From positions 1-41,727 of the forward strand of contig NZ_JAUSVX010000034.1 of assembly GCF_030814995.1 (NCBI RefSeq): 41,727 nt of DNA. Reading direction: 5' to 3'. This document shows, piece after piece, positions 247 to 23,170 of this stretch. Each line of letters begins with the position of its first letter. Positions within the stretch are counted from its first letter, which is position 1. The notes beneath the pieces are model-generated. The model searched no databases and had not been told where the DNA came from. It saw only the letters and a list, made by a program, of their open reading frames with translations. Made by a program: the position numbers and the translations under genes. This DNA is from Labrys wisconsinensis. Lineage in GTDB: Bacteria > Pseudomonadota > Alphaproteobacteria > Rhizobiales > Labraceae.

Positions 247-1452
247 TTAAAACTCGCCCGGCGGCGTCGCACGCCGCCGGGGCGGCGCGAAGAACGGGCG
301 GTCGACCACGCGGGCCCGCACCATGCTCTTCTGGTAGACCAGTTCGCGCAGGGCGTAGATCTCCACCCACAGGTCGTCCTTGACGCGGTCGCCATAGGGC
401 CGGGCCAGCGAGGCCAGGGCGATGTTGCGCTTGGCGGAGGGCGACCAGGCGGCCGCGGTGATGTGGCCGACCTCGCGTTTGCCGCGGTGATAGACCAGCG
501 CGTGCTCGGCCGGGACATTGCCGGCGATGTCGAGCCCGACCAGGATGTGGCGGGACGAGCCCCTGGCCTTTTCGGCGCGGAGCACCCGGGCGCCGTTGAA
601 ATGGCAGGGCTTGTCCCAGTCGATCATCCAGTCCAGGCCGATCTCCAGGGGCGAGCGGCGGCGGTCGGCGCGGATGGCGGCCTCGGCGGTGACGAAGTCG
701 GCATTGGCGACGATGAAGCCGGCCTCCAGCCGGGCGAGATCGAGCGCGGCATAGCCGATGGCAGTGATGCCGAGGAGCCCGCCCGCCTCGAACAGGCGGT
801 CCCAGAGCGCCAGCGCCGCGTCCGGCGCGACGAACAGCTCATAGCCGAGATCGCCGGTGAAGCCGGTGCGGGAGAGGTCGACGGCGAGGCCGTCCAGCGT
901 CACCCTGGCGAGGTCGAAGGGCTTCATCCGCTCGATGTCGAAGCCGGCGCGGCGCAGCACCGCGGCCGAGGTCGGCCCCTGCAGGGCGAGGCCGGCAATA
1001 TCGGCCGTCACCTCGGCGATCGAGACGTCGAAGCCGATGGCGCTGTCGCAGAGCCAGTCGAGATGGCGCTCCTGGCAGCACAGGCGGAACTCCGCGGCCG
1101 AGAAGCGGAACAGCGTGCCGTCGTCCAGCACCTTGCCCTGGTCGTCGCACCAGGCGGTGTAGTGCACGCGGCCGGGCTTCAGCCTGGCGACATCGCGCAA
1201 AGTGAGCCGGGCGAGGAAGGCCTCGGCGTCCGGCCCCTCGATCCGATATTTCACCATCGGCGTGACGTCGAAGACGGCCGCCGCGTTGCGGATGGCGAAA
1301 TATTCCAGTTCCTCGTCGCGGACGGCATGCGCCGATTTGTAGCCGCTCCAGGCATACCATTGGTTGGCGCGGCTCAGCGCCGCGATGCGCGGATGGAACG
1401 GCGTCTCCCACAGGGGAGTGCGGAAATGGTCCTGCTTCAGCGCATTACGCAT
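247..1452 (-). CDS. GcvT-like aminomethyltransferase (folate-dependent)
   Basis: This 401-residue protein belongs to the glycine-cleavage T-protein/DMSP-demethylase superfamily, whose members move a methyl or methylene group from an amine or sulfonium compound to tetrahydrofolate in the cytoplasm. The N-terminal folate-binding domain carries [16 protein letters not shown] (about 61-76) and the [16 protein letters not shown] segment (about 98-113), where the family's functional Asp lies. A GcvT C-terminal barrel follows, ending in a [20 protein letters not shown] segment. I chose the ATG at 1452, which overlaps the stop of the upstream oxidoreductase by 8 bp; an in-frame start at 1488 would lie deeper inside that gene. 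No glycine-cleavage H or P protein is nearby, so a role in demethylating another amine (sarcosine, dimethylglycine or betaine-type) is more likely than glycine cleavage. The substrate is inferred from context. Confidence 0.85.
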
Positions 1453-3046
1453 GGTCCGACCGCCCCGCCAGGATCGCCTTCGCCGCATTCAACGCCGCCG
1501 CGCCCATGACGCCGCCGCCGGGATGCGAGCCGGCGCCGCAGAGCCACAGGCCCGGCAGCGGCGTGGCGTAGCGGGCGGCGGCGGGAACCGGGCGCAGCAT
1601 GAACATCTGGTCGATGGCGAGCTCGCCGTGATGCCAATGGCCGCCGGGCATGCCGGTCTCGCGCTCGATATCGGCGGGCGTCATCAGATTTGCGGCGGTT
1701 ACCAGCCCGCCGATGCCGGGCGCATGGCGCTCCAGCACCGCCAGGATGCGGGCGAGGAAGCCGTCGCGCTTCGCCCGGGACCGCTCCCCGGCCGGGCCCG
1801 CGCCTTCCTCCCGGTCGAAGTCGTGGGCGGCATAGATGGCGCTGACCGACAGGACATGCCGCCCCGGCGGGGCGAGCGAGGGGTCGCTGAGCGTCGGGAT
1901 GACGATCTCGAGCGCCGGGCGCTCCGAGGCCTGTCCGTACTTGGCCGGATCGAACGCGGCCTCGATGGCCTGCACGGAGGGTGCGACCAGGAGACGGCCG
2001 GCCAGCGCGTCGGGGGAAAGGCCGGTGAAGACCGGCAATCCCGACAGCGCCAGATGCAGCCTCGCCACAGTGCCGCGCTGCCGGATGTTCTTCACCCGGC
2101 GGACGAAGCCGGTGTCGAAATGACGGGCGCCGGCGAGCTCCAGCAGCGTCGTCTTCGGGTTGGCGGCGGAGACGATGCAAGGGCAGCGGATCTCTTCGCC
2201 GGAGGCCAGGACGACGCCCGCCGCGGCGCCGTTCTCGACGATCAGCCGCGCCACCCGGGCACCCAGCCTGATCTCGGCGCCGGACGCCTCGGCTGCCGCG
2301 GCCAGCGCAGCCGAGACGGCGCCCATGCCGCCCCGGGGCAGCGCCAGCGCCGCCTGGCGGCCGCCGGATTCGCCGGCAAGGCGGTAATAGAGCGTCATCA
2401 GCGAATTGGGCGAGCGCGGCCCCAGATGGGTGCCGAGGACGGCGTCGAACGCCACGGCGCCCTTCAGCGTCTCGCTGGCGATCTCCTCCTCCAGCACGTC
2501 GGCGACATTCATCAGCACCATGCGCAGGAACTCGCGCATCTCGGCCCGTCCGAGCCGGCGGATGGCGAGGCCGAGCTTGCCGAGCGCCAGCATGTCCTTC
2601 AGCCCGCCATGCCTGAGGCGCGGCGGCGTTTCCAGCAGGAACGGCCGCAGCACGGCGGAAAAGCGCAGCAGGCGCCGGCGCAGACGGGACCAGGCCTCCC
2701 GGTCCGCGTCGGAGACGGCCCCGCTCAGCCGCTCGCCATAGGCGCCTTCGAGCGTGACATGGGCGCCGTCCTCGGCCAGCGCCGTGGTCGGGATGGCGTC
2801 GGCGGCGAGCGCCAATCCGTGCGCCGGAAGGTCGAGCCGGCGGATCAGCTCCGGGTGCAACTGGCCGAGGACGTGCGCCACCTGCGAGACGCGAAAGCCC
2901 GGGGCGAACGCGACGGTGCGCGCGGCGCCGCCGACCTCCGCCGCCGCCTCGAGCACCAGCACCCTCCTGCCTGCCTGGCCCAGCAGGGCGGCGCAGGCGA
3001 GGCCGTTATGGCCTGCGCCGATGATGACGGCATCAAACGACGGCAT
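1445..3046 (-). CDS. FAD-dependent oxidoreductase of the CrtI/PYROXD2-like family (copy A)
   Basis: This 533-residue flavoprotein has an N-terminal Rossmann motif, IIGAGHNGLACAALLGQAG (about 8-26), followed by the GG doublet of EVGGAART. Near the C-terminus is the second FAD-contact segment, LWLCGAGSHPGGGVMGAAAL. This layout is typical of the phytoene-desaturase/amine-oxidase-like group often labelled 'NAD(P)/FAD-dependent oxidoreductase'. No carotenoid biosynthesis genes are nearby, so a pigment role is unlikely. It overlaps the neighbouring paralogue by 14 bp and the GcvT-like gene by 8 bp, so the three are almost certainly translated from one mRNA. Oxidation of an amine or acyl intermediate of the locus is the best guess; the substrate is unknown. 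Confidence 0.85.
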   Translation of the reverse strand: MPSFDAVIIGAGHNGLACAALLGQAGRRVLVLEAAAEVGGAARTVAFAPGFRVSQVAHVLGQLHPELIRRLDLPAHGLALAADAIPTTALAEDGAHVTLEGAYGERLSGAVSDADREAWSRLRRRLLRFSAVLRPFLLETPPRLRHGGLKDMLALGKLGLAIRRLGRAEMREFLRMVLMNVADVLEEEIASETLKGAVAFDAVLGTHLGPRSPNSLMTLYYRLAGESGGRQAALALPRGGMGAVSAALAAAAEASGAEIRLGARVARLIVENGAAAGVVLASGEEIRCPCIVSAANPKTTLLELAGARHFDTGFVRRVKNIRQRGTVARLHLALSGLPVFTGLSPDALAGRLLVAPSVQAIEAAFDPAKYGQASERPALEIVIPTLSDPSLAPPGRHVLSVSAIYAAHDFDREEGAGPAGERSRAKRDGFLARILAVLERHAPGIGGLVTAANLMTPADIERETGMPGGHWHHGELAIDQMFMLRPVPAAARYATPLPGLWLCGAGSHPGGGVMGAAALNAAKAILAGRSDHA

Positions 3047-4652
3047 AGGCGTCGCTCATGCCGGTGGCGTCGCGCTTGAGGTCGCGCAGGATCTCGGCGG
3101 CGGCGTTGCGCCCCGGCGCGCCCATGACGCCGCCGCCGGGATGGGTGGAGGAGCCGCACATGTAGAGGCCCGGGATCGGGCTGCGATATTGCGCGTAGCC
3201 CGGCACCGGCCGGTTGAACAGCAACTGGTCGAAGGTGAGCTCGCCCTGGAAGATATTGCCCTCGGTCAGGCCGACCTCGGCCTCCAGCTCGCGCGGCGTG
3301 CGCACCTCGGCATGCAGGATCAGGCTTTTGAAATCGGGGGAGTATTCGGCGATCTGGTCGATCACGGTCCGGCCGAAGGCGTCGCGGTCGGCATCGGTCC
3401 AGTCGCGTCCCTCCACCTTGGGCGGGCAATATTGCACGAAGCAGCTCATGAAGTGCTTGCCGGGCGGGGTCATGGTCGGGTCGATGGTGGTCGGGATCAT
3501 CATGTCGAGGAAGGGATCGGCCGACCATCGGCCGTATTTCCAGTCGTCATAGGCGCGCTCCATCCGCTCGACGCTGTCGGTGAAGTGCAGGTCGCCGCGA
3601 TAGCAGGAGGAGTCCCGGGGCAAGGCCGGGAAGGTCGGCAGCCCGTCGAGGGCGATGTTGACCTTGCCGGAGGAACCGCGGATCTTGAACGCCTTCACCT
3701 TGCGGACGAAGTCCGGCGGCAGGGCGGCCTCGTCCACATGCCGGAGGAAGGTGCGCTTCACGTCCATGTTGGAGACGACGAGCTTGCCGCGGATCTCCTC
3801 GCCGCCTTCCAGCACCACGCCGACGGCGGCGCCGCCCTGGATGAGCACGCTGTCGATGCCCTTGCCGGTGCGGATCTCGCCGCCGCTCGCCTGAAGAGAG
3901 GCGGCGATCGCCTTGCTGATCGCGCCCATGCCGCCGCGCGCATAGCCCCAGGCGCCGACCGCGCCGTCGACCTCGCCCATGTAATGGTGCAGCAGCACAT
4001 AGGCCGAGCCCGGCGACATCGGCCCGAGCGCCGTGCCGATGATGCCCGAGATCGAGAGGTTGGCCTTGACCACGTCGGTCTCGAAATATTCGGCCAGGAA
4101 CTCGGCGATCGACATCGTCCAGAAGCGGATGGTGTCGGCCATCTCCGCCTCGGTCAGGTCGTAGAATTTCCGGCCGAGATGGAGCAGCTCGGCAAGGTCG
4201 CGCGGCTTCAGCGAGGTCGGATCCGGCGGTGTGCGCAGGAGGAACGGCCGGATGAAGCGGCACTGGCGGATCACGTCGGCGGAATAGCGGTCATAGGCCT
4301 CTGCGTCGCGCAGGGAGAAACGGCCGATCTCCCGGCGATGGGCGTCGTGGTCGCGATAGCTGCCGAGATAATCGCCGTCCCGCGTCAGCACCGCGCCGCC
4401 CTCGTAGGGGATGACCTGCAGCCCATGCCGGGGCAGATCGAGGTCGCGCATGATCTCCGGCCGCAGCAGCGAGCAGACATAGGAGCAGTTGGAATAGAGG
4501 AAGCCGGGATGAAGCGAACGGCTGACCGCGGCACCGCCGACCCAATCGTTCTTCTCCACCACCAGCACGCTGAGCCCGGCCTTGGCGAGATAGGCGGCGT
4601 TGACGAGGCCGTTATGCCCGGCGCCGACGATGATGGCGTCATAGATCTTCAT
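3033..4652 (-). CDS. FAD-dependent oxidoreductase of the CrtI/PYROXD2-like family (copy B)
   Basis: This 539-residue paralogue of the next gene downstream has the same dinucleotide-binding start (AIIVGAGHNGLVNAAYLAKA, about 6-25), the GGAA doublet, and a C-terminal YMCGSSTHPGGGVMGAPGRN motif. It is the first gene of an overlapping trio with copy A and the GcvT-like protein. The two copies clearly differ in sequence, so they may be subunits of a heteromer or act on successive intermediates rather than being a recent duplication. A 226-bp gap containing a palindromic repeat separates it from the aminotransferase upstream. Cytoplasmic or membrane-associated redox activity is expected from the family; the electron acceptor cannot be read from sequence. 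Confidence 0.85.
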   Translation of the reverse strand: MKIYDAIIVGAGHNGLVNAAYLAKAGLSVLVVEKNDWVGGAAVSRSLHPGFLYSNCSYVCSLLRPEIMRDLDLPRHGLQVIPYEGGAVLTRDGDYLGSYRDHDAHRREIGRFSLRDAEAYDRYSADVIRQCRFIRPFLLRTPPDPTSLKPRDLAELLHLGRKFYDLTEAEMADTIRFWTMSIAEFLAEYFETDVVKANLSISGIIGTALGPMSPGSAYVLLHHYMGEVDGAVGAWGYARGGMGAISKAIAASLQASGGEIRTGKGIDSVLIQGGAAVGVVLEGGEEIRGKLVVSNMDVKRTFLRHVDEAALPPDFVRKVKAFKIRGSSGKVNIALDGLPTFPALPRDSSCYRGDLHFTDSVERMERAYDDWKYGRWSADPFLDMMIPTTIDPTMTPPGKHFMSCFVQYCPPKVEGRDWTDADRDAFGRTVIDQIAEYSPDFKSLILHAEVRTPRELEAEVGLTEGNIFQGELTFDQLLFNRPVPGYAQYRSPIPGLYMCGSSTHPGGGVMGAPGRNAAAEILRDLKRDATGMSDAYAVV

Positions 4653-4878: not shown

Positions 4879-6258
4879 TCACGCCCTCGCCCGGTGCTCG
4901 GGATCGCCCGCCAGCTCGTCGATCGTCAGGTCCACCGCCCGCTCGAACCCGGCCAGCGTCGTCTCCAGGCACCCTTCGTCATGGGCTTCGCAGACGAACC
5001 AGGGCTCGCGGCTGTCGGGCTCGCAGAGGACGCCTTGGTCATGCAGGTGCTGGGCCATCGCGTCGTAGAAGCTGTAGTCCGATGTCTTCCAGTCGCGATA
5101 ATTCCGCGGCGGCTTCTCCGCGAAGAACAGGCCGCCCATCGAGGGATGGCCGGAGAAGGAATGGACGATGCCGCGGGCCTCGAGGATCCGGCTCATGCCT
5201 TTCTGCATCCGCAATCCGTAGCCGGCGATGGTCTCCAGCGCCGGCGTCTCCTCCAGGATCTCCAGCGTCTTGTTGGCGGCGGCCAGCGCGACGGAATGCG
5301 CGGTGTAGGTGCCGCCATGGGCGACACCCCGGCCGAAGCGGCGCATGATGTCCTCGCGCCCGGCCAGCGCCGCGATCTGGTAGCCGTTGGCCATGGCCTT
5401 GGCGAAGGTGCACAGGTCCGCCTTGACGCCCATCAGCGACTGGATGCCGCCGCGGGCGACGCGGAAGCCCGACTTGACCTCGTCGATGATCAGCACCACG
5501 CCATACTGGTCGCAGAGCCGGCGCACGGCCCGGACATAGTCGGGATCGGCGGTGATGGCGCAGCAATTGCCCTGGATCGGCTCCATCAGCATGGCGGCGA
5601 TCTCGCCGGAGCGGCGCTTGAACAGGTCCTCCAGATAGTCCGCGTCGTTCATCGGCGCCTGGTGGATGAGCTGGCGCCCGATCTCGGGCACGCCCTGGCT
5701 GTAGGGGATCAGCGCCGGGTAGGTCTTGGAGCCGGGGTCCCAGTTGTCGACGTCCGAGGTCCACAGCGCCGCGTCGAACAACCCGTGATAGCCGCCCTCG
5801 AGGATGACGTAGCCGCTCCTGCCGGTGTAGCCGCGGGCGAGCCGCAGCGCCGCCATGACGGCCTCGGTGCCGGAATTGGAGAAGCGGACGAGCTCGGCCG
5901 CCGGCACCATGCGCGAGATCCGGCATGCCGCCTCGTATTCCCGCTCGGTGCCGAGCGCGAAGACGCCGCCGACCTCCATGCCCTGGCGGGCGGCCTCGTC
6001 GACGCGCGGATCGGCATAGCCCAGGATCGCCGGGCCGTAGCCGAGGCGGTAGTCGACATAGCCATTGTCGTCGAGGTCCCAGATGCGGCCGCCCTTGCCG
6101 CGCTTGACATAGATGGTCTTGTCCTCGCCCCAGTAGCGGAAGTTCGAGGCGACGCCGAGCGGCAGCCTGGTCAGCGCCTTGCGGAAATGGGCATTGCTCT
6201 TGGCGAGCGAGCGTTTGACGGGCTTTTCGTTGGCTCTCGACGTGGTGCTCAGGGCCAT
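4879..6258 (-). CDS. Class-III PLP aminotransferase (glutamate-1-semialdehyde aminomutase-like)
   Basis: This 459-residue fold-type I PLP enzyme shows SNSGTEA (about 127-133, phosphate contact), IIDEVKSGFR with the cofactor-binding Asp259, and the Schiff-base lysine Lys287 in TFAKAMANG. Automated annotation would probably call it glutamate-1-semialdehyde 2,1-aminomutase (HemL). However, it sits in a catabolic cluster with FAD oxidoreductases, and Hyphomicrobiales normally make 5-aminolevulinate through HemA from glycine, so a transaminase acting on the locus substrate is more likely. I chose the ATG at 6258, which has GGGGGAG just upstream; an in-frame ATG 12 bases earlier lacks such a site. 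It is transcribed divergently from the TetR gene and probably shares its operator. Confidence 0.85.
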   Translation of the reverse strand: MALSTTSRANEKPVKRSLAKSNAHFRKALTRLPLGVASNFRYWGEDKTIYVKRGKGGRIWDLDDNGYVDYRLGYGPAILGYADPRVDEAARQGMEVGGVFALGTEREYEAACRISRMVPAAELVRFSNSGTEAVMAALRLARGYTGRSGYVILEGGYHGLFDAALWTSDVDNWDPGSKTYPALIPYSQGVPEIGRQLIHQAPMNDADYLEDLFKRRSGEIAAMLMEPIQGNCCAITADPDYVRAVRRLCDQYGVVLIIDEVKSGFRVARGGIQSLMGVKADLCTFAKAMANGYQIAALAGREDIMRRFGRGVAHGGTYTAHSVALAAANKTLEILEETPALETIAGYGLRMQKGMSRILEARGIVHSFSGHPSMGGLFFAEKPPRNYRDWKTSDYSFYDAMAQHLHDQGVLCEPDSREPWFVCEAHDEGCLETTLAGFERAVDLTIDELAGDPEHRARA

Positions 6259-6343
6259 TGTCTCCCCCATCCGGGTTTGCGCCGTTGCCGATCGATGCCG
6301 CCATCCTGGCACGGGAGAGCGCCGATTGTCCACATCACTAATC

Positions 6344-6385
6344 AAACGTTCATTCGATAATGCGCGTTGACTGGCAAAACGTTCA
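6344..6385. promoter_or_regulatory. Candidate operator for the BetI-like regulator in the divergent promoter
   Basis: The 9-base word AAACGTTCA occurs at 6344-6352 and again at 6377-6385, exactly 33 bases (about three helical turns) apart, in an AT-richer patch between the divergent aminotransferase and TetR genes. The first copy continues as TTCATTCGATAAT. The core resembles the TTGAACGTTCAA-like sites bound by BetI regulators. A TetR regulator usually controls its own divergent intergenic region, which fits. Binding is inferred, not shown. Confidence 0.4.
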
Positions 6386-6552
6386 GCAAGAACCGGTTGA
6401 CAGGGCCGGCGATTGCTCTAGCGTGACAAGGGCTCCGCGAGGGATTTCGACGTGCCGACCACGCCAGGTTCACGAGAGGTCAGGCCGACCGGCGCCGCGG
6501 GCCCGGTGCCATGGCCGGCGCAGGGCGGCGCCCCCAGCCCCGGCGGACGGCC

Positions 6553-7215
6553 ATGAGCACGGCGCCCGCCCCGTCGCCGACACGTCGCCAGGCCCAGAAG
6601 TCGGAGCGGCGTGCCGACCTGATCGAGGCGACGATCGACTGCCTGGCCAAGCACGGCTACGAGGCGACCACCGTCGCTGTCGTGGCCGAGGCCGTGGGCA
6701 TGTCGCGCGGCATCGTCAATTTCCACTTCGACACCAAGCAGAAGCTGCTGCTGGCAACCCTGCGCCACCTCTCCGACGAGTACCGGGCCCATTGGCGCGC
6801 CGCCCTCACCGCGGCCGGCCCCTCGCCGGCCGCCCGGCTCTGGGCGCTGGCGGCGGCGGATTTCGACAAGCGCGTCTGCACGCCGCGCAAGCTGGCCGCC
6901 TGGTGCGCCTTCTGGGGCGAGGCGAAGTCGCGGCCGACCTACCGGGAGATGTGCGGGGCGAACGACGAGGAGTACCAGGGCACGGTGATCGAGCTGTGCA
7001 CGGCGCTGGCGCCGCCCGGCCGCGATCCCGTGCGGCTCGCCCGCGGCATCGTCTGCATGCTGGAGGGGCTGTGGCTGCACCTCCTGATGGCGCCGAGGGA
7101 CGTGTCGCGGGAGGAGGCCCGGGAGGTGGCGCTGTCCCAGCTCCGCACCCTGCTGCCACAGCATTTCGGCCCGGACGGCCCCGTCGCGGCCGAGATCGGC
7201 GAGGCGGCGCCATGA
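6553..7215 (+). CDS. TetR-family regulator, BetI-like
   Basis: This 220-residue repressor has an N-terminal helix-turn-helix (ATTVAVVAEAVGMSRGIVNFHF followed by the DTKQKLL helix, about 40-65). Its C-terminal ligand domain has the BetI-type signature AAWCAFWGEAKSRPTYREMC. Such regulators often sense quaternary amines or acyl compounds and repress an adjacent operon. The ATG at 6553 was chosen; an in-frame ATG at 6511 would add 14 Arg/Pro-rich residues before the conserved domain. The stop overlaps the acyl-CoA dehydrogenase start by four bases (ATGA), so the two genes are translationally coupled. It resembles the regulator half of the TetR-Rieske fusion at 12829-14613, which suggests both answer to a related ligand. 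Confidence 0.9.
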   Translation: MSTAPAPSPTRRQAQKSERRADLIEATIDCLAKHGYEATTVAVVAEAVGMSRGIVNFHFDTKQKLLLATLRHLSDEYRAHWRAALTAAGPSPAARLWALAAADFDKRVCTPRKLAAWCAFWGEAKSRPTYREMCGANDEEYQGTVIELCTALAPPGRDPVRLARGIVCMLEGLWLHLLMAPRDVSREEAREVALSQLRTLLPQHFGPDGPVAAEIGEAAP

Positions 7216-8384
7216 GCTTCGGCCTGCCCCCGAGCGCGCTCGCCTGGCGGGCGAAGGTCCGGCGCTTCGTCGACGAGGAGCTGATCCCGCACGAGGTCGA
7301 GGCGGAGATGAGCGGCGGCGAGCTGGCGCCGGCGCTGCTGCAGCGCCACGAGGCCTTGGCGATCGGGCTCGGCCTCGCCCGCATGGACGCGCCGCGGCGC
7401 CATGGCGGCCTGGAGCTGCCGCTGATCGACCAGGTCGCGGCGGCCGAGCAGATCGGCCGCGTCACCAATGCGCTGGGCTGGTGCTACCCCGAGGCCCAGT
7501 CCTGGATGTTCGAGGCCTGCGATGCCGGCCAGATCGAACGCTTCGTCCTGCCGATGATGCGCGGCGAACGGCATTTCTGCTACGCCATCACCGAGGAATT
7601 CGCGGGATCGGATGTCTCGGAGATCGCGACCACGGCGACGCCCGACGGCGACGACGTCCTGATATCAGGCGAGAAATGGCACGTCACCAGCGAGAACCTG
7701 GCCGACGTCATCCTGGTCCAGGCCCGGATCGGGGGCGATGGCGGCCAGGCCCTGTTCTTCGTCGAGAAGGGCGCGCCCGGCATCGCGGTCAAGCGCTCGC
7801 CGGCCTATAGCCACACCTACCGGCACCACCACCCGATCCTGGCTTTCGACCGGGTGCGGGTGCCGCAGGCCAACCTCATCGGCCCGCGCGATGCCGGCAT
7901 GACCTTCGCCTATGCCTGGTTCCGGCGCGAGCGGCTGATGATCGCGGCCCGCTGCTGCGGCGCGATGGAACGGCTGGTCGAGGAGACCGCTGCCTTCGCC
8001 CGGGCGCGGCGGGTCGGCGGCGAGGCGCTCATCGACAAGCAGCTCATCGCCGCCATGCTCGCCGACAGCCTCGTCGACCTGCAGGCGGCGCGGCTGATCA
8101 CCTACGAGGCGGCGGCGGCGCACGATGCCGGGCTCGATCTCAAGACGCTGCATGCGCGCTGCTCGATCGCCAAGCTGTTCGCCTCGGAGGCGGCGGGACG
8201 GGTCGCCGACCGCTGCGTTCAGGTGTTCGGCGGGCGCGGCTACATGCGCGAGAACGTCGCCGAACGGTTCTGGCGCGAGTTGCGGGTCGACCGCATCTGG
8301 GAAGGCGCCAGCGAGATCCAGCGCCTGATCATCGCCAACGCCCTCGCCAAGCGCGGCGTGGACGGCACGATCGGCGGAACCTGA
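7212..8384 (+). CDS. Acyl-CoA dehydrogenase family protein
   Basis: This 390-residue FAD enzyme removes two hydrogens from the alpha-beta position of an acyl-CoA, or a related acyl substrate, and passes electrons to ETF. The middle domain has CYAITEEFAGSDVSEI. The C-terminal helical domain ends with CVQVFGGRGYMRE and WEGASEIQRLII, which contains the family's catalytic Glu. Its start overlaps the TetR stop by four bases, and the importer genes follow after 71 bases. It is clearly not ETF or an ETF dehydrogenase, and neither gene is present in the window. The chain length or type of substrate cannot be read from sequence; in this setting a betainyl-CoA-like or short branched acyl-CoA is plausible. 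Confidence 0.9.
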   Translation: MSFGLPPSALAWRAKVRRFVDEELIPHEVEAEMSGGELAPALLQRHEALAIGLGLARMDAPRRHGGLELPLIDQVAAAEQIGRVTNALGWCYPEAQSWMFEACDAGQIERFVLPMMRGERHFCYAITEEFAGSDVSEIATTATPDGDDVLISGEKWHVTSENLADVILVQARIGGDGGQALFFVEKGAPGIAVKRSPAYSHTYRHHHPILAFDRVRVPQANLIGPRDAGMTFAYAWFRRERLMIAARCCGAMERLVEETAAFARARRVGGEALIDKQLIAAMLADSLVDLQAARLITYEAAAAHDAGLDLKTLHARCSIAKLFASEAAGRVADRCVQVFGGRGYMRENVAERFWRELRVDRIWEGASEIQRLIIANALAKRGVDGTIGGT

Positions 8385-8455: not shown

Positions 8456-9565
8456 ATGATCCCGGTTTCCAAGCGCCTGTCGCTGTGTTGCGCCGCCGCC
8501 GTCGCCGGCCTCCTCGCCGCATCCGCGGCCCGGGCCGACGAGGAGAAGGTCCTGCACGTCTACAACTGGGCCGACTATATCGGCGAGACCACGCTGGCCG
8601 ACTTCGAGAAGGAGACCGGCATCAAGGTGGTCTACGACACCTATGACGCTTCCGAGACGGTCGACGCCAAGATGATGGCCGGCAAGTCGGGCTATGACGT
8701 GGTGCTGCATTCCGGCAGCTTCCTGCCGCGCCTGATCAAGGCGGGGGCGTTCCAGAAGCTCGACAAGGCGAAGCTGACCAACTGGGGCAATCTCGACCCG
8801 CACACGCTCGGCATCATCGCCACCTACGACCCGGGCAACCAGTATGGCGTGCCCTATATGTGGGGCACGGTCGGCATCACCTACAACCTCGACATGGTCA
8901 AGGAGCGGATCAAGGACGCGCCGCTCGACTCGCTCGACATGCTGTTCAACCCGGATTACGCGGGCAAACTTAGGGATTGCGGCATCTCGGTGCTGGACAG
9001 CCCCACCGACATCATGCCGATGGCGCTGGCCTATTTCGGCAAGAAGCAGGACACCGAGGATCCCGCCGACTACCAGGTGGTGGTCGACGCCTTCGCCAAG
9101 GTCCATGACGCCATCAAGACCTTCGACAGCGAGAACTATCTCAACGCCCTGCCCAACAAGGAGCTGTGCATGGCGTTCACCTGGTCGGGCGACTATGCCA
9201 CCGCGATGACGCGCGCCAAGGAGGCGGGCGTCGATCTTCATCTGCAATATGTCGTGCCGAAGACCGGCGCCCCCGCCTGGTTCGACGCCTGGGTCATCCC
9301 AGCGGACGCGCCGCATCCGCAGAATGCCCAGCTGTTCCTGAACTACATGCTGCGGCCCGAGGTCATCGCCGCCGCGACCAACACCACGCACTACGCCAAC
9401 TCGATTCCCGCCTCGAACAAGCTGGTCGACCCCGCCATCCTCAACGACCCGGCGGTCTATCCCGACGCGGCGGTGCAGGCGCGGATCTGGGCCAAGGTCT
9501 CGGCGACGCAGAGCGGACAGCGGGAGTTCACCCGGGCGTGGAGCCGGATCCGGACGGGGCAATAG
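8456..9565 (+). CDS. PotF-type polyamine ABC transporter substrate-binding protein
   Basis: This 369-residue periplasmic binding protein has a Sec signal peptide of about 26 residues ending AARA-D. The mature part follows the E. coli PotF pattern closely from memory: YNWADYIGETTLADFEKETG, PYMWGTVGITYN, the WSGD segment, FLNYMLRPEVIA and a terminal RAWSRIRTGQ. Aromatic and acidic pocket residues (Trp-x-Asp-Tyr, Trp-Ser-Gly-Asp, Phe-Asp) are present. This family binds putrescine, spermidine and other di- or polyamines, and diverged members bind other cationic amines. A clear ribosome binding site, GAGGGGAC, precedes the ATG. It heads the PotFGHI-like set, which continues after 28 bases. Substrate identity is not proven. 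Confidence 0.9.
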   Translation: MIPVSKRLSLCCAAAVAGLLAASAARADEEKVLHVYNWADYIGETTLADFEKETGIKVVYDTYDASETVDAKMMAGKSGYDVVLHSGSFLPRLIKAGAFQKLDKAKLTNWGNLDPHTLGIIATYDPGNQYGVPYMWGTVGITYNLDMVKERIKDAPLDSLDMLFNPDYAGKLRDCGISVLDSPTDIMPMALAYFGKKQDTEDPADYQVVVDAFAKVHDAIKTFDSENYLNALPNKELCMAFTWSGDYATAMTRAKEAGVDLHLQYVVPKTGAPAWFDAWVIPADAPHPQNAQLFLNYMLRPEVIAAATNTTHYANSIPASNKLVDPAILNDPAVYPDAAVQARIWAKVSATQSGQREFTRAWSRIRTGQ

Positions 9566-9593
9566 GAGGCGAAGGCCCCGCGGAGCCCCGCAG

Positions 9594-10754
9594 ATGCCTG
9601 CCCTCCCCCCGCAAAAGCTCCCCGACCTCCAGGCCCGGCCCTGGCTCGATCCCAAGGCCCCGGCCTTCGTCGAGATCGAACGGGTCACCAAGAAGTTCGG
9701 CGAGTTCGTCGCGGTGCAGGACGTCTCGCTGAAGATCTACCGGCAGGAGCTGTTCTGCCTGCTCGGCGGATCGGGCTGCGGCAAGACCACGCTCCTGCGC
9801 ATGCTGGCCGGCTTCGAGACGCCGAGCGCCGGCCGCGTGCTGATCGACGGGGTCGACGTCACCACCGTGCCGCCCTATGCGCGGCCGGTGAACATGATGT
9901 TCCAGTCCTATGCGCTGTTTCCGCACATGAGCGTGGAGCAGAATGTCGGCTATGGGCTGAAGCACGACAGGCTGACCCGGGCCGAGGCGAAGGACCGGGT
10001 CGAGGAGATGCTGGACCTCGTGCAATTGCAGGGGTTCGGCCGGCGCAAGCCGCACCAGCTCTCCGGCGGCCAGAAGCAGCGCGTGGCGCTCGCCCGGGCC
10101 CTGGCCAAGAAGCCGAAGCTGCTGCTGCTCGACGAGCCGCTGGGGGCGCTCGACAAGAAGCTGCGCGAGCAGACGCAGTTCGAGCTGATGAACATCCAGC
10201 ACCAGGTCGGCGTCACCTTCGTGGTGGTGACGCACGACCAGGAGGAGGCGATGGTGCTGGCCTCCCGTCTCGCGGTGATGGACCGCGGCGCCATCATGCA
10301 GGTGGGCACGCCCTCCGACGTCTACGAATATCCCAACTGCCGCTTCACCGCCGACTTCATCGGCTCGATCAACCTGTTCGAAGGCACGGTGACGGCGGTT
10401 GAGGGCGCGCGCGTCGTCGTCGCCTGCGAGGACATGCCCGTGCCGCTGGTGGTGGAGGCTCCCGCCAGCCTGCAGGTCGGCACGCCCGTCGCCGTGGCCG
10501 TGCGGCCGGAGAAGATCGCCATCGGCCGCGACCGGCCGGCGGAGACCGGCTTCAACGCCGCGCCGGGCCAGGTCTATGACCTCGGCTATTTCGGCGACCG
10601 CTCCCTGTTCCGGGTGAAGCTGCCCTCGGGCCGCATCGTGCTGGTCAGCGGCCAGAACAGCCGTCGGGCGCGCGACGACGAGCGGCCGGTGGATTGGGAC
10701 GACGCGGTGTGGCTGTCCTGGCCGGCCCATGCCGCGCTGGTGCTGACGGAATGA
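9594..10754 (+). CDS. PotG-type ABC transporter ATP-binding protein
   Basis: This 386-residue cytoplasmic ATPase powers the importer. It has Walker A GGSGCGKT (58-65), Q-loop MMFQSYALFPH, signature LSGGQKQR, Walker B LLLLDEPLGALD, and the H-loop in VVVTHDQEEAM. A C-terminal TOBE-like regulatory region follows, with VAVRPEKIAI. The extra N-terminal stretch of about 25 residues, rich in Pro, is typical of PotG compared with PotA. It pairs with the two permeases downstream, from which it is separated by 227 bases holding a large inverted repeat. Confidence 0.92.
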   Translation: MPALPPQKLPDLQARPWLDPKAPAFVEIERVTKKFGEFVAVQDVSLKIYRQELFCLLGGSGCGKTTLLRMLAGFETPSAGRVLIDGVDVTTVPPYARPVNMMFQSYALFPHMSVEQNVGYGLKHDRLTRAEAKDRVEEMLDLVQLQGFGRRKPHQLSGGQKQRVALARALAKKPKLLLLDEPLGALDKKLREQTQFELMNIQHQVGVTFVVVTHDQEEAMVLASRLAVMDRGAIMQVGTPSDVYEYPNCRFTADFIGSINLFEGTVTAVEGARVVVACEDMPVPLVVEAPASLQVGTPVAVAVRPEKIAIGRDRPAETGFNAAPGQVYDLGYFGDRSLFRVKLPSGRIVLVSGQNSRRARDDERPVDWDDAVWLSWPAHAALVLTE

Positions 10755-10789
10755 AGGGGGCATTTGCCAATGGGATGGAAGCGCGACTA

Positions 10790-10937
10790 CCCCTCTCCCG
10801 GCCGGGAGAGGGGCAGGGGTGAGGGACTAGACGGTCCCGGACATGGCAGGCCCTTTGCCGGCGCTGCATCGATCGGCCGCTTCATTGCCGACACGTTCAG
10901 ACCCTCACCCCTGCCCCTCTCCCGGCCGGGAGAGGGG
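10790..10937. repeat. Large inverted repeat of two palindromes inside the importer operon
   Basis: A 36-base arm (10790-10825) is repeated in perfect inverted orientation at 10902-10937 across a 76-base spacer. Each arm holds a 24-base perfect palindrome (10790-10813 and 10914-10937, core CTCCCGGCCGGGAG) plus a 12-base tail, CAGGGGTGAGGG. It fills most of the gap between the ATPase gene and the first permease gene. It resembles mobile REP-like palindromes of GC-rich bacteria. In the transcript it could form either two local hairpins or one long stem, and may tune the ratio of upstream to downstream gene products. Confidence 0.9.
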
Positions 10938-10981
10938 TTTCCGAGCGCTATAGTTGAACGCTGCGCTCGCCAGGGCGCGCC

Positions 10982-11896
10982 ATGAGCAAACCTGCCTTCC
11001 GAGACCGTTTCCGCATCTCCTGGAAGGCGCCGGTCGCCGGCATTCCCTATCTCTGGCTGCTCCTGTTCTTCCTCGCCCCGTTCCTGATCGTGCTGAAGAT
11101 CAGCATCGCCGACGGGGTGGTGAGCCTGCCGCCCTATACGCCGCTGTGGAGCTGGAACGATGACGGGTCGCTCGCCATCCGGCTGCAGTTCGGCAACTAC
11201 CATTACTTCATCAAGGACCCGCTCTACATCATCGCCTATCTCAACTCGCTGAAGATCGCGGCGATCTCGACGGTGCTCTGCCTCCTCGTCGCCTATCCGA
11301 TCGCGCTCGCCATTGCGCGCTCCTCGCCGACCGGGCGCAGCGTCTACATGCTCCTGATCATCCTGCCGTTCTGGACCTCGTTCGTCCTGCGCATCTATGC
11401 CTGGATGGGCCTCCTCAACCGCAACGGGCTGATCAACGCCGCGCTGATGCATCTCGGCCTGATCGACCAGCCGATCACGATGATGAACACCGACTTCGCG
11501 GTGTATCTCGGCATCGTCTATTCCTATCTGCCGTTCATGGTGCTGCCGATCTACGTGGCGCTGGAGAAGATGGATGCCAGCCTGCTCGAGGCGGCCGGCG
11601 ATCTCGGCTCCAGGCCCTGGCAGGTGTTCCGCGACGTGACGCTGCCCCTGTCGATGCCGGGCGTCATCGCGGGATCACTGCTGGTCTTCATCCCGGCGAC
11701 CGGGGAATATGTCATCCCGGCCCTGCTCGGCAGTCCGGGCAGCCCGATGATCGGGCGGGTGCTGTTCGACGAGTTCTATGTCAATCGGGACTGGCCGGTG
11801 GCCTCCGCCGTCGCGGTGGTGCTGGTGCTGATCCTGGTGGCGCCGATCCTGTGGTTCCAGCGGGCGCAGATGCGCCAGGCGGAGGCGGGCCGATGA
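10982..11896 (+). CDS. PotH-type ABC transporter permease
   Basis: This 304-residue inner-membrane permease has about six hydrophobic segments, beginning with YLWLLLFFLAPFLIVL. It carries the EAA loop that contacts the ATPase (LLEAAGDLGSRPWQVFRDVTLPLSMPG). The long periplasmic loop before the second membrane segment is typical of PotH/PotB. A start ATG follows AGGGCGCGCC. Its last codon overlaps the next permease by four bases (ATGA). It works with the PotI-like protein as a heterodimer. Confidence 0.92.
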   Translation: MSKPAFRDRFRISWKAPVAGIPYLWLLLFFLAPFLIVLKISIADGVVSLPPYTPLWSWNDDGSLAIRLQFGNYHYFIKDPLYIIAYLNSLKIAAISTVLCLLVAYPIALAIARSSPTGRSVYMLLIILPFWTSFVLRIYAWMGLLNRNGLINAALMHLGLIDQPITMMNTDFAVYLGIVYSYLPFMVLPIYVALEKMDASLLEAAGDLGSRPWQVFRDVTLPLSMPGVIAGSLLVFIPATGEYVIPALLGSPGSPMIGRVLFDEFYVNRDWPVASAVAVVLVLILVAPILWFQRAQMRQAEAGR

Positions 11897-12777
11897 AGGG
11901 GCGCTCCGGCTTCCTGACGCTGTGCCTGTTCGGCGGGCTGATCTTCCTCTACGGCCCGATCCTGACGATGATCGTCTATTCCTTCAACGTCTCGAAGCTG
12001 GCGACGGTGTGGGGCGGGTTCTCGACCAAATGGTATGGCGAGCTCCTCGACAACACGCAGGTGATCGATGCGGCGCTGCTCAGCCTGCGCATCGCGGCGG
12101 TGTCGGCCACCGTGGCGACGGCGTTCGGCACGCTGGCCGGGATCACCCTGGCGCGGTTCGGCCGGTTCCGCGGCTGCACCCTGTTCTCCGGCATGATCAC
12201 CGCGCCGCTGGTCATGCCGGATGTGATCACCGGGCTGTCGCTGCTCCTCCTGTTCGTCGCCATGGAGCAGGCGATCGGCTGGCCGGACGGGCGGGGCAGC
12301 CTGACCATCATCATCGCCCACATCACCTTCTCCATGGCCTATGTCGCCGTGATCATCCAGTCGCGCCTCGCCGCCATGGACAATTCCCTGGAGGAGGCGG
12401 CACTCGACCTCGGGTCCCGGCCGCTGCAGGTGATGGTCGACATCACCCTGCCGCTGCTGGCTCCCGGCATGGTGGCGGGCTGGCTCCTGGCCTTCACCCT
12501 GTCGCTCGACGATCTCGTCATCGCCACCTTCACCACCGGGCCCGGCGCCAACACGCTGCCGATGGTGGTGTTCTCCAAGGTCAAGCTCGGGGTGAAGCCC
12601 GACATCAACGCCCTGGCGACGATCGTGATCCTGACCGTCGGGCTGGTGGTGGCGGCCGCCTCGATCATCGGCGGGCGGGTGCAGCGCCAGCGCCTCGCCG
12701 ATACGCAGCGCGCCGCCGCCGAGCCGGCGAGCGCCGGGCCACGCACCGCCCGGCTGGTGCGGCGGAGACGGGAGTGA
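11893..12777 (+). CDS. PotI-type ABC transporter permease
   Basis: This 294-residue inner-membrane permease starts at the ATG that overlaps the PotH stop. It has about six membrane segments and an EAA loop, LEEAALDLGSRPLQVMVDIT, followed by LPLLAPGMVAGWLLAFTLSLDDLVIATF, which is highly characteristic of PotI/PotC. It ends with a basic, Ala/Arg-rich cytoplasmic tail. This is the last gene of the TetR-dehydrogenase-importer unit. A hairpin terminator candidate begins 11 bases after its stop. Confidence 0.92.
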   Translation: MKGRSGFLTLCLFGGLIFLYGPILTMIVYSFNVSKLATVWGGFSTKWYGELLDNTQVIDAALLSLRIAAVSATVATAFGTLAGITLARFGRFRGCTLFSGMITAPLVMPDVITGLSLLLLFVAMEQAIGWPDGRGSLTIIIAHITFSMAYVAVIIQSRLAAMDNSLEEAALDLGSRPLQVMVDITLPLLAPGMVAGWLLAFTLSLDDLVIATFTTGPGANTLPMVVFSKVKLGVKPDINALATIVILTVGLVVAAASIIGGRVQRQRLADTQRAAAEPASAGPRTARLVRRRRE

Positions 12778-12788
12778 GGCGCGAAAAG

Positions 12789-12813
12789 CCTTCTCCAACG
12801 AAGTTGGGGAAGG
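12789..12813. terminator. Bidirectional hairpin between convergent genes
   Basis: An 11-base-pair stem (CCTTCTCCAAC / GTTGGGGAAGG, one G-U pair) closes a GAA loop. It lies 11 bases after the PotI-like stop and 15 bases beyond the stop of the convergent TetR-Rieske gene, so it can serve both. There is no strong T tract, so it may act with Rho or as an mRNA-stabilising end. Confidence 0.55.
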
Positions 12814-12828
12814 CATTCAGACTGCCCC

Positions 12829-14613
12829 TCACCGCGCCTGCGGCATGTCCTGGCGCACCCAGTCGTGCAAGGCCCGGACATTGACTTCCTTGTCCGACAG
12901 CACGCCGCGCTCATAGGTCCCGGCGTTGAGGTTCTCCTGCACGGATTCGATCAGCGCATTGTCCTCGTGGTGCACCCCGAAATTGATGCGCTGCCCGAGA
13001 TATTGCACCGCCTCGAGCTGCCGGTCCGCCTGCCTCGGGCCGTAGCTGCGCCAGCGGATCCGCGAACGTCCGGGGCCGAGCGGGGTGATGTGGTAGAAGT
13101 CGACCTGGTCGGGGAAGGTCTCGATGGCGACGCCGGGATACATGTAGAAATAGCTCCAACGCCGCCGCTGCGCCGGCGGCAGGTGCTCGCTCGCCAGCAG
13201 GAGCCGCGCATACATCCGCGTCGACCAGTCGCCCCGCACCTCCTCGCGCATCACGTGGCTGAGGCGGATGGTGCGGGTGGCGTGGTCCGGCTCGCGGTCA
13301 TAGTCCTTGGCCATCAGCGCGCTGAGGCCGGGATGGCCGACGGGAAAGTGGTAGTCCTCGAGGTAATTGTCCCAGACATTCTTCCAGTCGGCCTCGACCG
13401 TGCCCTGCCAATAGTCGGAGATCGGCACCATGTCCGCGATGGCGTAAGGCGCGAGCTCCTCGGCATAGGGCGCATAGCGCTCTGCCACCGAGGCGCCGCC
13501 GGGCGCGAAGCGGACGAAGACGAAGCCGCAGAAGATCTCCGAGTCCACCGGGAACAGGCCGAGATTGGCCTTGTCCAGCTTCGGGAAGGTGCGCGAGGCG
13601 GCGATCCCTCTCAGCACGCCCTGCGTGTCGTAGCACCAGGCATGGTAGGGGCATTGCAGGACGGTGTCGGTGTGTCCCTGCCGGTGCGGCGCGATGGCGT
13701 GGGCGCGATGGCGGCAGACATTGTGGAAGACGCGCACCGCGCCGTCCTCGCCGCGCATGGCGAGGACGCGCTTGCCGAGCACCTCCATGGTGACGTAGTC
13801 GCCCGGAGTCGGCAGCTCGCCGACATGGCAGAGCACATGCCAGGCCGGCAGGTGCACGCGCTCGACCTCGGCGGCCGAGAAGGCCGCGTCGCGATAGGTC
13901 CAGGCCGGCAGGGTCAGGCGCGCGAGATAGTCCCGCTCCTCCTCGGACAGGTCCTCGGTCTCGGCCGCCTTGTCCTGCGGCGGATCCGCGGCGAACAGGC
14001 TGGGGAACAGGTTCTTCAGGTAAAGCCGGCAGAGCTCGAGGCCGGCGGCATGGTCGAAGGCCTCGCCCTCCACCAGCGCTTCCTGCCAGAGATTGTCGAC
14101 AAGGCCGCAGAGGCCCAGCGCAGCGGACCTAGCATCGACCGCGACGCCCGCCGTGGCGACGAGATCTGCGACCAGCGCCCGCACCGCATCCTGGTAGGCC
14201 CGGTCCGAGGCGCCGCAGACCGCCATATAGTCGGCCCGCGCCCCACTCTCGCCCCAGAACGCGGTCCAGACCGCGAGCTTGACCGGCGTGGCGATGGTCT
14301 TGTCGAAATTCACGGCGAGCAGCGCCATGATCGCCTCGACCGGCTTGCCGGCGTGGGGCGCCACCGCCGCCTCGCAGGCCTCGCGATGCTCGTCGGCCAG
14401 GCGCCCGATGGTGGCGGCCAGGAGGTCCTGCTTCGAGGTGAAATGGAAATTGACCATGCCGGCGGTGAGGCCGGCGAGCTTGGCCACCTTCTCCAGCGTC
14501 ACGTTCGACAGGCCGTGCCGGGCAATCGCCTCCATCGCCGCTTCCAGGAGCTGCTCGCGCCGCTCTTCCTGCGGCCGGCGCATGCGGGCGGATTTTCCCG
14601 GACGGTCGAGCAT
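12829..14613 (-). CDS. TetR (BetI-like) regulator fused to a Rieske non-heme iron oxygenase
   Basis: One uninterrupted frame of 594 codons encodes two proteins that are normally separate. Residues 1 to about 207 are a TetR regulator: helix-turn-helix VTLEKVAKLAGLTAGMVNFH (38-57) and BetI-type C-domain VWTAFWGESGARADYMAVC (115-133). Residues about 222-594 are a complete ring-hydroxylating-type alpha subunit: Rieske ligands Cys300, His302, Cys321 and His324, mononuclear iron ligands His422, His427 and probably Asp551, and Glu419 three residues before His422. A Glu at that bridging position, rather than Asp, is seen in carnitine/choline-type Rieske oxygenases. No ATG, GTG or TTG codon lies in the linker (about 205-235), so separate translation of the oxygenase is not obvious. 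ATG 14613 has GGGAG seven bases upstream; an ATG at 14646 lacks one. No reductase gene is visible nearby. Confidence 0.88.
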   Translation of the reverse strand: MLDRPGKSARMRRPQEERREQLLEAAMEAIARHGLSNVTLEKVAKLAGLTAGMVNFHFTSKQDLLAATIGRLADEHREACEAAVAPHAGKPVEAIMALLAVNFDKTIATPVKLAVWTAFWGESGARADYMAVCGASDRAYQDAVRALVADLVATAGVAVDARSAALGLCGLVDNLWQEALVEGEAFDHAAGLELCRLYLKNLFPSLFAADPPQDKAAETEDLSEEERDYLARLTLPAWTYRDAAFSAAEVERVHLPAWHVLCHVGELPTPGDYVTMEVLGKRVLAMRGEDGAVRVFHNVCRHRAHAIAPHRQGHTDTVLQCPYHAWCYDTQGVLRGIAASRTFPKLDKANLGLFPVDSEIFCGFVFVRFAPGGASVAERYAPYAEELAPYAIADMVPISDYWQGTVEADWKNVWDNYLEDYHFPVGHPGLSALMAKDYDREPDHATRTIRLSHVMREEVRGDWSTRMYARLLLASEHLPPAQRRRWSYFYMYPGVAIETFPDQVDFYHITPLGPGRSRIRWRSYGPRQADRQLEAVQYLGQRINFGVHHEDNALIESVQENLNAGTYERGVLSDKEVNVRALHDWVRQDMPQAR

Positions 14614-14635
14614 GGCGCGGCTCCCGATATCTTTT

Positions 14636-14663
14636 CGAATGGTCATATGATAGTGCCGAATGG
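14636..14663. promoter_or_regulatory. Candidate operator before the TetR-Rieske gene
   Basis: The word CGAATGG occurs at 14636-14642 and 14657-14663, 21 bases (two helical turns) apart, around an 8-base palindrome TCATATGA. It lies 23-50 bases upstream of the chosen start, where an autoregulatory TetR site would be expected. Read on the other strand the word is CCATTCG, which shares CATTCG with the candidate BetI-like site at 6344-6385. Confidence 0.35.
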
Positions 14664-14701
14664 ATGTTTTGTAAATCGTCGCGGATCGGCAGGGCCGCGC
14701 G

Positions 14702-15376
14702 TCAGATTCCGAGCCATTCGAGGCCGGCCGGCAGGTCCGCGGCGGCGTAGTCGACCTGCAGCACCCGCCGGCGGCCCGGTTCGGCGGCAGCCTCCGAGGC
14801 GTGCAGGATCGGCGTGGCATAAAGCCAGACGTCGCCGGCCGCGGCGAGGCAGGCACGGACGCCGCAATCCCGCACGATGCCGGGAATGTCGGCCTCGGCG
14901 ATCCGCCCGAGGCGGTGCGAGCCCGGCGCGACCAGGAGCGGCGCGTTGCCGGCGGGCACGGGATCGAGATGGACCCGCAGCGTAACCATCCCGGCGAGCA
15001 GCGCACAGGGCGGGGCCACATGCGGCATGCCGCCCTTGACGGTCCAGGGGCCGAACCCGTCGACGTCGAGACGCCCGACAACGGCGATGGTCCGGTCCTG
15101 GTGCCAGGCCAGCGCCCAATTGTTTGCCGGCGTCTTGTCGAACAGGACGGCGCGGACGGGCCGGCAGCCTGCTCCGATCGCGCCGACGGCGATGGCGCCG
15201 ACCGCGCCGGACGGCGCCAGGAGCAGGCCGAGGGCGGCGATGCCGCGCAGCCGGATGCCCGCCCGATCCGGCGGCAGGCCGGCGATGGCCGCTTCGATCG
15301 CGGCGAGATCGGCCGCGACGGCGCCGCGGAACGGCTGCGCGCCGTCCCGCGCGAAAGTCATCGCGCCGTCCGTCAT
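14702..15376 (-). CDS. PhyH-like Fe(II)/2-oxoglutarate dioxygenase
   Basis: This 224-residue protein resembles the phytanoyl-CoA dioxygenase family, which hydroxylates small organic substrates using 2-oxoglutarate and iron. The visible iron motif is WHQD (about 92-95, His-x-Asp), with a distal His in the ILHASEAA segment near the C-terminus followed by Arg residues in GRRRVLQVDY that may bind 2-oxoglutarate. It is shorter than typical family members (about 270-300), mainly at the N-terminus. The start at 15376 lies ten bases after the HAD gene, with a G-rich site upstream. It ends 88 bases before the TetR-Rieske start. It is the last gene of the long leftward chain; the substrate is unknown. 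Confidence 0.75.
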   Translation of the reverse strand: MTDGAMTFARDGAQPFRGAVAADLAAIEAAIAGLPPDRAGIRLRGIAALGLLLAPSGAVGAIAVGAIGAGCRPVRAVLFDKTPANNWALAWHQDRTIAVVGRLDVDGFGPWTVKGGMPHVAPPCALLAGMVTLRVHLDPVPAGNAPLLVAPGSHRLGRIAEADIPGIVRDCGVRACLAAAGDVWLYATPILHASEAAAEPGRRRVLQVDYAAADLPAGLEWLGI

Positions 15377-15386
15377 CCCATGCCCC

Positions 15387-16064: not shown

Positions 16065-16129
16065 GGCTGGTCTTTCCGTGGCGGTCGCTCGATGGTAGCG
16101 GCGCGCCGCCGGTCCGCGCAACCGCGCCG

Positions 16130-18012: not shown

Positions 18013-18016
18013 CGCC

Positions 18017-18883: not shown

Positions 18884-19013
18884 GGGGCGTGGGGTGGTGC
18901 CGCGATTGTGGAACACTCAAGGAGGGAATGCATCAGGACCGACGCACCTCGTTTGTTGCAGGTAAGGGCGTATCCGGCGAACGGCATATGCATCTCGTGG
19001 CGCTGTCCCCTGC

Positions 19014-19146
19014 CGTCATGGCCGGGCTTGACCCGGCCATCCACGCGGACACATTCCGGAGTCGCGTCAAACACCGCCGATGTCGCAGCGAACACAAGCC
19101 TATGTCGCGTTCGCGTGGATGGCCGGGTCAAGCCCGGCCATGACGG
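19014..19146. repeat. Paired palindromic dispersed repeat, copy 2, in a 337-base gene-free gap
   Basis: Two 34-base arms (19014-19047 and 19113-19146) are perfect inverted copies. Each contains its own hairpin, GGCCGGG-cttga-CCCGGCC. The element matches the one at 4768-4856 but with a longer spacer of about 65 bases. The whole gap 18884-19220 between the first permease and the binding-protein gene contains nothing else I can recognise. In the mRNA the element would form strong structures and may protect the upstream binding-protein message. Confidence 0.9.
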
Positions 19147-19220
19147 CCTGAGTTCCCGCGCACCTGGGACGACGATCGTCTTCACGTCTTCATAAAGTCG
19201 ATCGAGCCCCTCGTCTCCCC

Positions 19221-22108: not shown

Positions 22109-22120
22109 GGGCGCCCTCCC

Positions 22121-23155: not shown

Positions 23156-23170
23156 GGATGCCTCCGGGTC

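Follow-up and report, generated by a model that had tools for sequence, protein, structure and literature searches.

A TetR-type regulator and a Rieske oxygenase in one reading frame of Labrys wisconsinensis, with a predicted operator over its own promoter

Can an oxygenase and the repressor of its own gene be one and the same molecule? The question is raised by a gene in a 41,727-nucleotide stretch of Labrys wisconsinensis DNA (contig NZ_JAUSVX010000034.1, positions 1 to 41,727; hereafter the window), which a preliminary description had read as a complete BetI-like TetR regulator running without a break into a complete Rieske oxygenase. Few enzymes have a DNA-binding repressor of their own built in. 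PutA is described as repressing putA and putP without proline and acting as an enzyme with it, and five such trigger enzymes are counted in E. coli K-12 (PMC8249747). Among the open-licence PubMed Central papers listed in literature searches, none showed a TetR-Rieske fusion.

One frame, two halves

The gene and its parts are as follows.

12829..14613, minus strand: TetR-Rieske fusion gene, 594 aa (open frame, four Pfam domains, fused relatives)
13993..14613, minus strand: TetR half, residues 1-207, with TetR_N at 22-67 and a BetI-type TetR_C_6 at 91-203 (Pfam, alignment, model)
13915..13992, minus strand: linker, residues 208-233, without a start codon (pLDDT below 50 at 210-220)
12832..13914, minus strand: Rieske oxygenase half, residues 234-594, with the [2Fe-2S] domain at 258-342 and the catalytic domain at 405-590 (Pfam, CntA alignment, Foldseek, ligand counts)
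14621..14625, minus strand: likely ribosome-binding site GGGAG, 7 nt before the ATG at 14613 (read from the sequence)

Translation of 12829-14613 gives 594 codons with zero internal stops. All four Pfam matches exceed their curated cut-offs: TetR_N (44.5 bits, cut-off 24), TetR_C_6 (57.1 bits, cut-off 27), Rieske (258-342), and Ring_hydroxyl_A (405-590). Codons 196-252, which take in the linker and beyond, hold no ATG, GTG, or TTG, and the earliest such codon, GTG253, already lies within the Rieske half. Upstream, the longest open reading frame extends as far as TTG 15081; we chose ATG 14613 because homology begins there, GGGAG stands 7 nt before it, and a promoter and predicted operators lie just upstream.

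In a sequence search against TetR structures, the first half matched 3e7q (E 1.1e-17). An AlphaFold2 monomer model built from 15 sequences reached a mean pLDDT of 85.2 and a pTM of 0.65, with residues 210-220 below 50. The TetR half resembles BetI, the choline-binding repressor, in its TetR_C_6 domain and in sub-threshold matches to BetI models. It differs from BetI in where those scores fall (TIGR03384, 99.1 bits against a cut-off of 201.3; PRK00767, 100.1 against 118) and in carrying an oxygenase. The single frame, the BetI-like character of the TetR half, and the lack of a start codon at the junction are borne out by the open frame, the Pfam domains, the TetR_C_6 match, and an architecture that is conserved in other genomes.

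At least 20 other one-frame fusions were found, mostly in Alphaproteobacteria, so that the set comprises 21 with the window: the window itself, 15 loci from a related-locus search, and five from whole-genome searches. The related-locus search returned 23 loci, of which 15 are one-frame fusions (L014-L028; the 5' end of L017 is cut by its contig), two hold the two genes separately (L029, L031), two have a TetR match only, and four a Rieske match only. All 21 frames are open across linkers of 21-57 aa, and 14 aligned relatives share 34-61% identity with the window protein. Counting the window's own genome each time, and with the three best candidates per genome scored in most cases, the fusion occurs in at least 8 of 397 genomes of the window's order, at least 3 of 385 of its class, and at least 1 of 398 of its phylum. 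Four of the whole-genome matches were loci already in hand (L018, L019, L021, L022); the new five (G017, G043, G008, G558, G731) belong to the window's order or class. Eleven of the 15 related-locus fusions are labelled alphaproteobacterial, the other labels being Mycobacterium sp. (L014), Proteobacteria (L024), Gammaproteobacteria (L026), and uncultured bacterium (L028). In an alignment, the L014 fusion (Mycobacterium sp. KBS0706) is nearly identical to that of Inquilinus limosus, and the organism name on L014 is probably wrong.

Could the joined frame be a product of sequencing or assembly, with a stop missed or a frameshift introduced between two genes? One point speaks for it: none of the four other Labrys species searched has the fusion. 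Their best matches to the catabolic FAD oxidase described below are distant, however (31-42%, against 61-83% in six fusion-bearing genomes), so these species seem to miss the whole cluster. With 20 further one-frame fusions in other assemblies, the notion of a lone artefact that is elsewhere always two genes fails as well; the conserved architecture rules out an artefact or missed stop, to which we give a negligible probability. On this comparison the fusion is genuine, one polypeptide with a flexible linker.

The oxygenase half and its neighbours

The Rieske half holds complete sites for the cluster and the iron (CxH...CxxH, two His, one Asp), and the residues that the preliminary description had named (C300, H302, C321, H324, H422, H427, and E419) all proved correct. 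Its best solved relative, by sequence (E 2e-32) and by fold, is CntA, the oxygenase subunit of carnitine monooxygenase (group Va). Its structural paper gives the CntA ligands as Cys86, His88, Cys106, His109, His208, His213, and Asp323, names Glu205 as the bridging residue, and describes a pi-cation contact between Tyr203 and the quaternary ammonium group (PMC7948474). A phmmer alignment pairs E419, H422, and H427 with residues 225, 228, and 233 of the CntA chain; with a numbering offset of 20, derived from E205 in this analysis, these correspond to E205, H208, and H213 in the paper. With the same offset, Y417 aligns with Y203 and E419 with the bridging E205; D551 falls on Asp323 in a separate and very weak alignment piece (-2.2 bits). 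The Rieske half shares with CntA both the bridging Glu and the Tyr that contacts the quaternary ammonium group there; the fusion differs from it in overall sequence (about 23% identity over the fold) and in the added TetR half. No partner reductase was identified among the window genes scanned.

Position 203 is aromatic in clade Va (carnitine, choline, benzalkonium) and Asn in clade Vb (glycine betaine, stachydrine), again according to the paper (PMC7948474). The window protein has the bridging Glu (E419) and an aromatic residue (Y417), and by these residues it would fall in clade Va of group V, apart from the Vb enzymes GbcA and Stc2. Among NCBIfam models the Rieske half scores highest with GbcA, at 114.3 bits against a cut-off of 670. 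Every one of the 50 Foldseek matches listed bears the title of a Rieske oxygenase. CntA takes the first 13 places, followed by four quaternary-ammonium or stachydrine demethylase entries, so that Stc2 (stachydrine demethylase, group Vb) follows CntA by fold. The carnitine/choline-type enzyme that had been proposed agrees with the E419/Y417 alignment, and by sequence and fold we regard the half as a complete oxygenase of the CntA, or quaternary-ammonium, type.

Across the 21 fusions, H302 and H427 are kept in every copy, C300, C321, H324, E419, and D551 in 20, and H422 and Y417 in 19. All eight ligands checked are retained in 19 of 21; the exceptions are L076 (in genome G008), which lacks most of them, and L028, which lacks H422 and Y417. 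In 45 aligned stand-alone or split relatives, position 417 is Tyr (19), Phe (3), Asp (13), Asn (9), or Ser (1), and the substrate class may therefore differ across the wider family. Relatives of the Rieske half also occur in 15 plasmid records, none of which covers 80% of the query; neighbourhoods were viewed for two of them.

The genes beside the fusion are listed below.

247..1488, minus strand: GcvT-like aminomethyltransferase (Pfam)
1445..3046, minus strand: FAD amine oxidase-like gene A (Pfam)
3033..4652, minus strand: FAD amine oxidase-like gene B (Pfam; kept beside relatives)
4879..6345, minus strand: class III aminotransferase-like gene, GntE/HemL-like, with a possible ATG start at 6270 (profile matches)
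6511..7215, plus strand: second, stand-alone BetI-type TetR (TetR2), about 37% identical to the fused TetR half (Pfam)
7245..8384, plus strand: acyl-CoA dehydrogenase-like gene (NCBIfam)
8456..12777, plus strand: PotFGHI-like ABC importer of binding protein, ATPase, and two permeases (profile matches)

FAD oxidases and GcvT stand beside the fused forms L018, L023, L024, L025, L076, and L085, and the importer beside L014-L017 and L022. Parts of the set also accompany the two-gene loci L029 and L031 and are present at L081, where the TetR and Rieske genes are apart; G017 and G043 have the FAD oxidase set elsewhere in the genome. The link is frequent and not universal, since a genome search of the fusion-bearing G042, G081 (76% complete), and G558 gave no FAD oxidase match at E<=1e-60. 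Together, the importer, the class III transaminase, the FAD amine oxidases, and the GcvT-like protein suggest a methylated or quaternary amine, perhaps polyamine-like, as the substrate. For the eight neighbours scanned, the best equivalog matches all stayed under their cut-offs. Homarine, considered as a candidate substrate, gained no support from a literature search.

Just upstream and on the same strand as the fusion gene, 14702-20243 (minus strand) holds a second Pot-type ABC importer and HAD phosphatase-like and PhyH-like genes; the fusion gene has its own promoter-like site. Further on, 20633-25541 (minus strand) encodes an aldehyde dehydrogenase, a luciferase-like monooxygenase, and an AA_synth protein, a gene set that we take to resemble trigonelline-type ring cleavage. 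Inside it, at 23171-25057 (minus strand), an alpha/beta hydrolase and a flavin reductase domain are joined in one frame.

A predicted operator and its possible readers

Upstream of the fused genes lies a palindrome with a consensus of about TTGAATGATCATTCAA (14.9 bits of information), usually doubled. In the window, the following sites were recorded.

14635..14650, no strand assigned: predicted gene-proximal operator site, reading TCATATGACCATTCGA on the minus strand, over the -10 (leave-one-out scan)
14656..14671, no strand assigned: predicted second operator site, weaker and a further 21 bp upstream (leave-one-out scan)
14647..14675, minus strand: sigma-70-like promoter TTTACA-17-TATCAT (promoter scan of 12600-14900)
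6342..6357, no strand assigned: best operator match in the window, score 19.3, between the transaminase/FAD oxidase/GcvT genes (minus strand) and TetR2 (plus strand) (motif scan)

The motif scan took in 17 of the 21 fusions, leaving out L015, L016, L017, and L027 as near-copies or for want of upstream DNA; with two two-gene loci, L030, and L081, this makes 21 scanned loci. In a leave-one-out scan the motif is the top-scoring position of the entire locus in 17 of the 21; in the window it comes second. It should be noted that the seed words were picked after the upstream sequences had been viewed, so the scan is not fully blind; L028, L076, L081, and L085 were scored and never entered motif training. 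No good site was found upstream of L076 (rank 23), L085 (rank 5), or L081 (rank 146).

Three positions in the window score at least 11, where shuffling predicts 0.6. Two of them stand before the fusion gene, and the highest-scoring lies at 6342, ahead of the catabolic operon. TTTACA-17-TATCAT is the only promoter-like match on either strand of 12600-14900 (0.1 expected), and both predicted operator sites overlap it. A motif site lies over the best promoter-like match in 17 of 18 loci examined, although such promoters are weak in several loci, with up to 35 of 100 shuffles as good. Where two sites occur (12 loci), they are spaced 20-22 bp apart in nine. The earlier suggestion that the fusion has an operator of its own gains sequence support from the palindrome, conserved and usually present twice, that covers the gene's promoter and recurs at the pathway operon.

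Which protein might read these sites? The motif is also found ahead of stand-alone Rieske genes (in 12 of 37, at a score of at least 13), and a Shinella plasmid stretch carries it at three places, the sole annotated TetR there being of the TetR2 kind. The palindrome would then be the operator of a wider regulon that both kinds of TetR may share; it is probably also read by the separate paralogue, and TetR2 may even be its main reader, in the window as well. A TetR2 search of 12 genomes found only G043 to have no match at E<=1e-18 besides its fusion. The operon stretch of G043 was examined after this absence had been seen, to test the idea of a pathway regulator, and motif sites stand before its fusion (17.0), a stand-alone Rieske gene (15.2 and 20.0), and the FAD/GcvT operon (19.6). 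We consider G043 the best evidence that the fused protein may act as a pathway regulator, although a more distant TetR may read these sites instead.

A catalytic repressor, a sensor, or a relic

The family forms a natural series around one pathway, with overlapping genes, intact fusions, dead fusions, and either half alone, and it makes directly testable why an enzyme and a repressor become one molecule. At L029 and L031 the TetR and Rieske genes are separate with a 4-nt overlap. In L028, a short MAG contig, the fused iron site is broken and the upstream motif retained. L076 is a full-length open frame with most ligands gone in which Rieske and Ring_hydroxyl_A still score above their cut-offs; from base composition, a tail this open would arise by chance at about 2e-5. 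At L081, the TetR has a short tail that looks by eye like the start of a Rieske domain, and Pfam finds no Rieske there. Two single genes fall within the fused clade: a TetR gene at L030, which lies at a contig end and retains the motif, and a Rieske gene at L060 (G466). G008 and G605, whose fused oxygenase half is dead or missing, each have another intact Rieske gene with the motif upstream. As read from these sequences, the series fits a catalytic role for intact fusions and a retained non-catalytic role in G008.

We think it probable that the protein resembles a trigger enzyme, repressing its own gene and the pathway and oxidising a quaternary or methylated amine. As long as substrate is absent, the TetR half would occupy the predicted operators and keep the fusion gene and pathway off. 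A methylated or quaternary amine would enter, probably via the Pot-type importer, and bind, most likely in the BetI-type pocket, freeing the DNA. The attached Rieske half would then oxidise the amine, through N-demethylation or cleavage of a C-N bond, leaving the products to the FAD oxidase and GcvT-like proteins. With the halves joined, repressor supply would equal enzyme supply, and the gene would shut off again as the substrate runs down. Like PutA, and like BirA and NadR, the fusion combines an enzyme and a DNA-binding domain in one polypeptide, here by sequence only. PutA acts on its own gene and on pathway genes (PMC8249747), and the fusion has predicted sites at both; it differs in its DNA-binding domain (TetR) and its enzyme (a Rieske oxygenase), and switching by substrate is only proposed here.

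We prefer this reading because the 21 conserved fusions have open frames and keep their catalytic residues, because a predicted operator covers the gene's own promoter while the window's best match is at the catabolic operon, and because G043 has motif sites without a TetR2 match, with G000 and G017 having no other close Rieske gene besides the fusion in a genome search (the next match in G000 is 34% over part, E 7e-26). Counting against it are the missing motif at L076, L085, and L081; the motif at stand-alone Rieske genes and on the Shinella stretch with TetR2 only; the lack of a close FAD oxidase in G042, G081, and G558 and of a reductase among the window genes scanned; and stand-alone Rieske relatives. 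The last accompany a fusion in G122, G041, G042, G043, G558, and G731 (at 36% or more in five of 12 searched fusion genomes: G122, G041, G042, G043, G558), and could be the main enzyme in genomes holding both.

An enzyme turned sensor, in which the main task of the Rieske half is to detect substrate, oxygen, or redox state and catalysis is secondary and lost in some lineages, seems to us unlikely but worth weighing. L076 suits it, as an open, domain-matching fusion with almost all metal ligands gone in a genome (G008) that holds another intact, motif-preceded Rieske gene, and so does L028 with its retained motif; yet L076 has no upstream operator, which leaves even its role as a regulator in question, L028 comes from a single short MAG contig, nearly all fusions keep every ligand, and G000 and G017 have no second close Rieske gene. 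As a pointer to control of DNA binding by the oxygenase, the dead copies are suggestive only. TetR regulators are usually dimers. CntA, the closest solved relative of the Rieske half, is described as an alpha-3 trimer (PMC7948474), which leaves a structural puzzle. A more speculative form of the sensor reading has the Rieske trimer in command: its substrate, or the redox state of its [2Fe-2S] cluster, would govern DNA binding by the linked TetR dimers, whose operators lie about 21 bp apart, and in a lineage such as G008 the metal-free pseudo-oxygenase would have become a pure sensor domain. Under mere co-production, the TetR half would no longer regulate, the shared operators would be read by TetR2, and the fused copy would be a tag for tethering or solubility or a leftover from the overlapping genes; this strikes us as improbable. 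The TetR2 paralogue and the same motif do occur in genomes without a fusion, and two loci have the genes separate with a 4-nt overlap, but the helix-turn-helix stretch is well conserved in fused copies, G043 has predicted operators and no TetR2 match, and L030 keeps the motif with the TetR alone in the fused clade.

As to origin, the hypothesis that the 15 intact fusions form a single Rieske clade was rejected (p 6.7e-7). When L060, which lies inside the main clade, is left out, a single origin is not rejected (p 0.15). These are quick trees, with the degenerate L028 and L076 among the rows left out, and we claim neither one origin nor several. The TetR tree lacks L005 and L011, and the placement of L012 in it is meaningless.

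Two further arrangements were seen. At L084 (7203-10315, plus strand, G558), a second, stand-alone Rieske gene directly follows the fusion gene with a 4-nt overlap. At L032 (7920-8924, plus strand), a free-standing relative of the TetR half is extended at its C terminus by about 110 aa, presumably an IS3-type transposase helix-turn-helix piece by its look.
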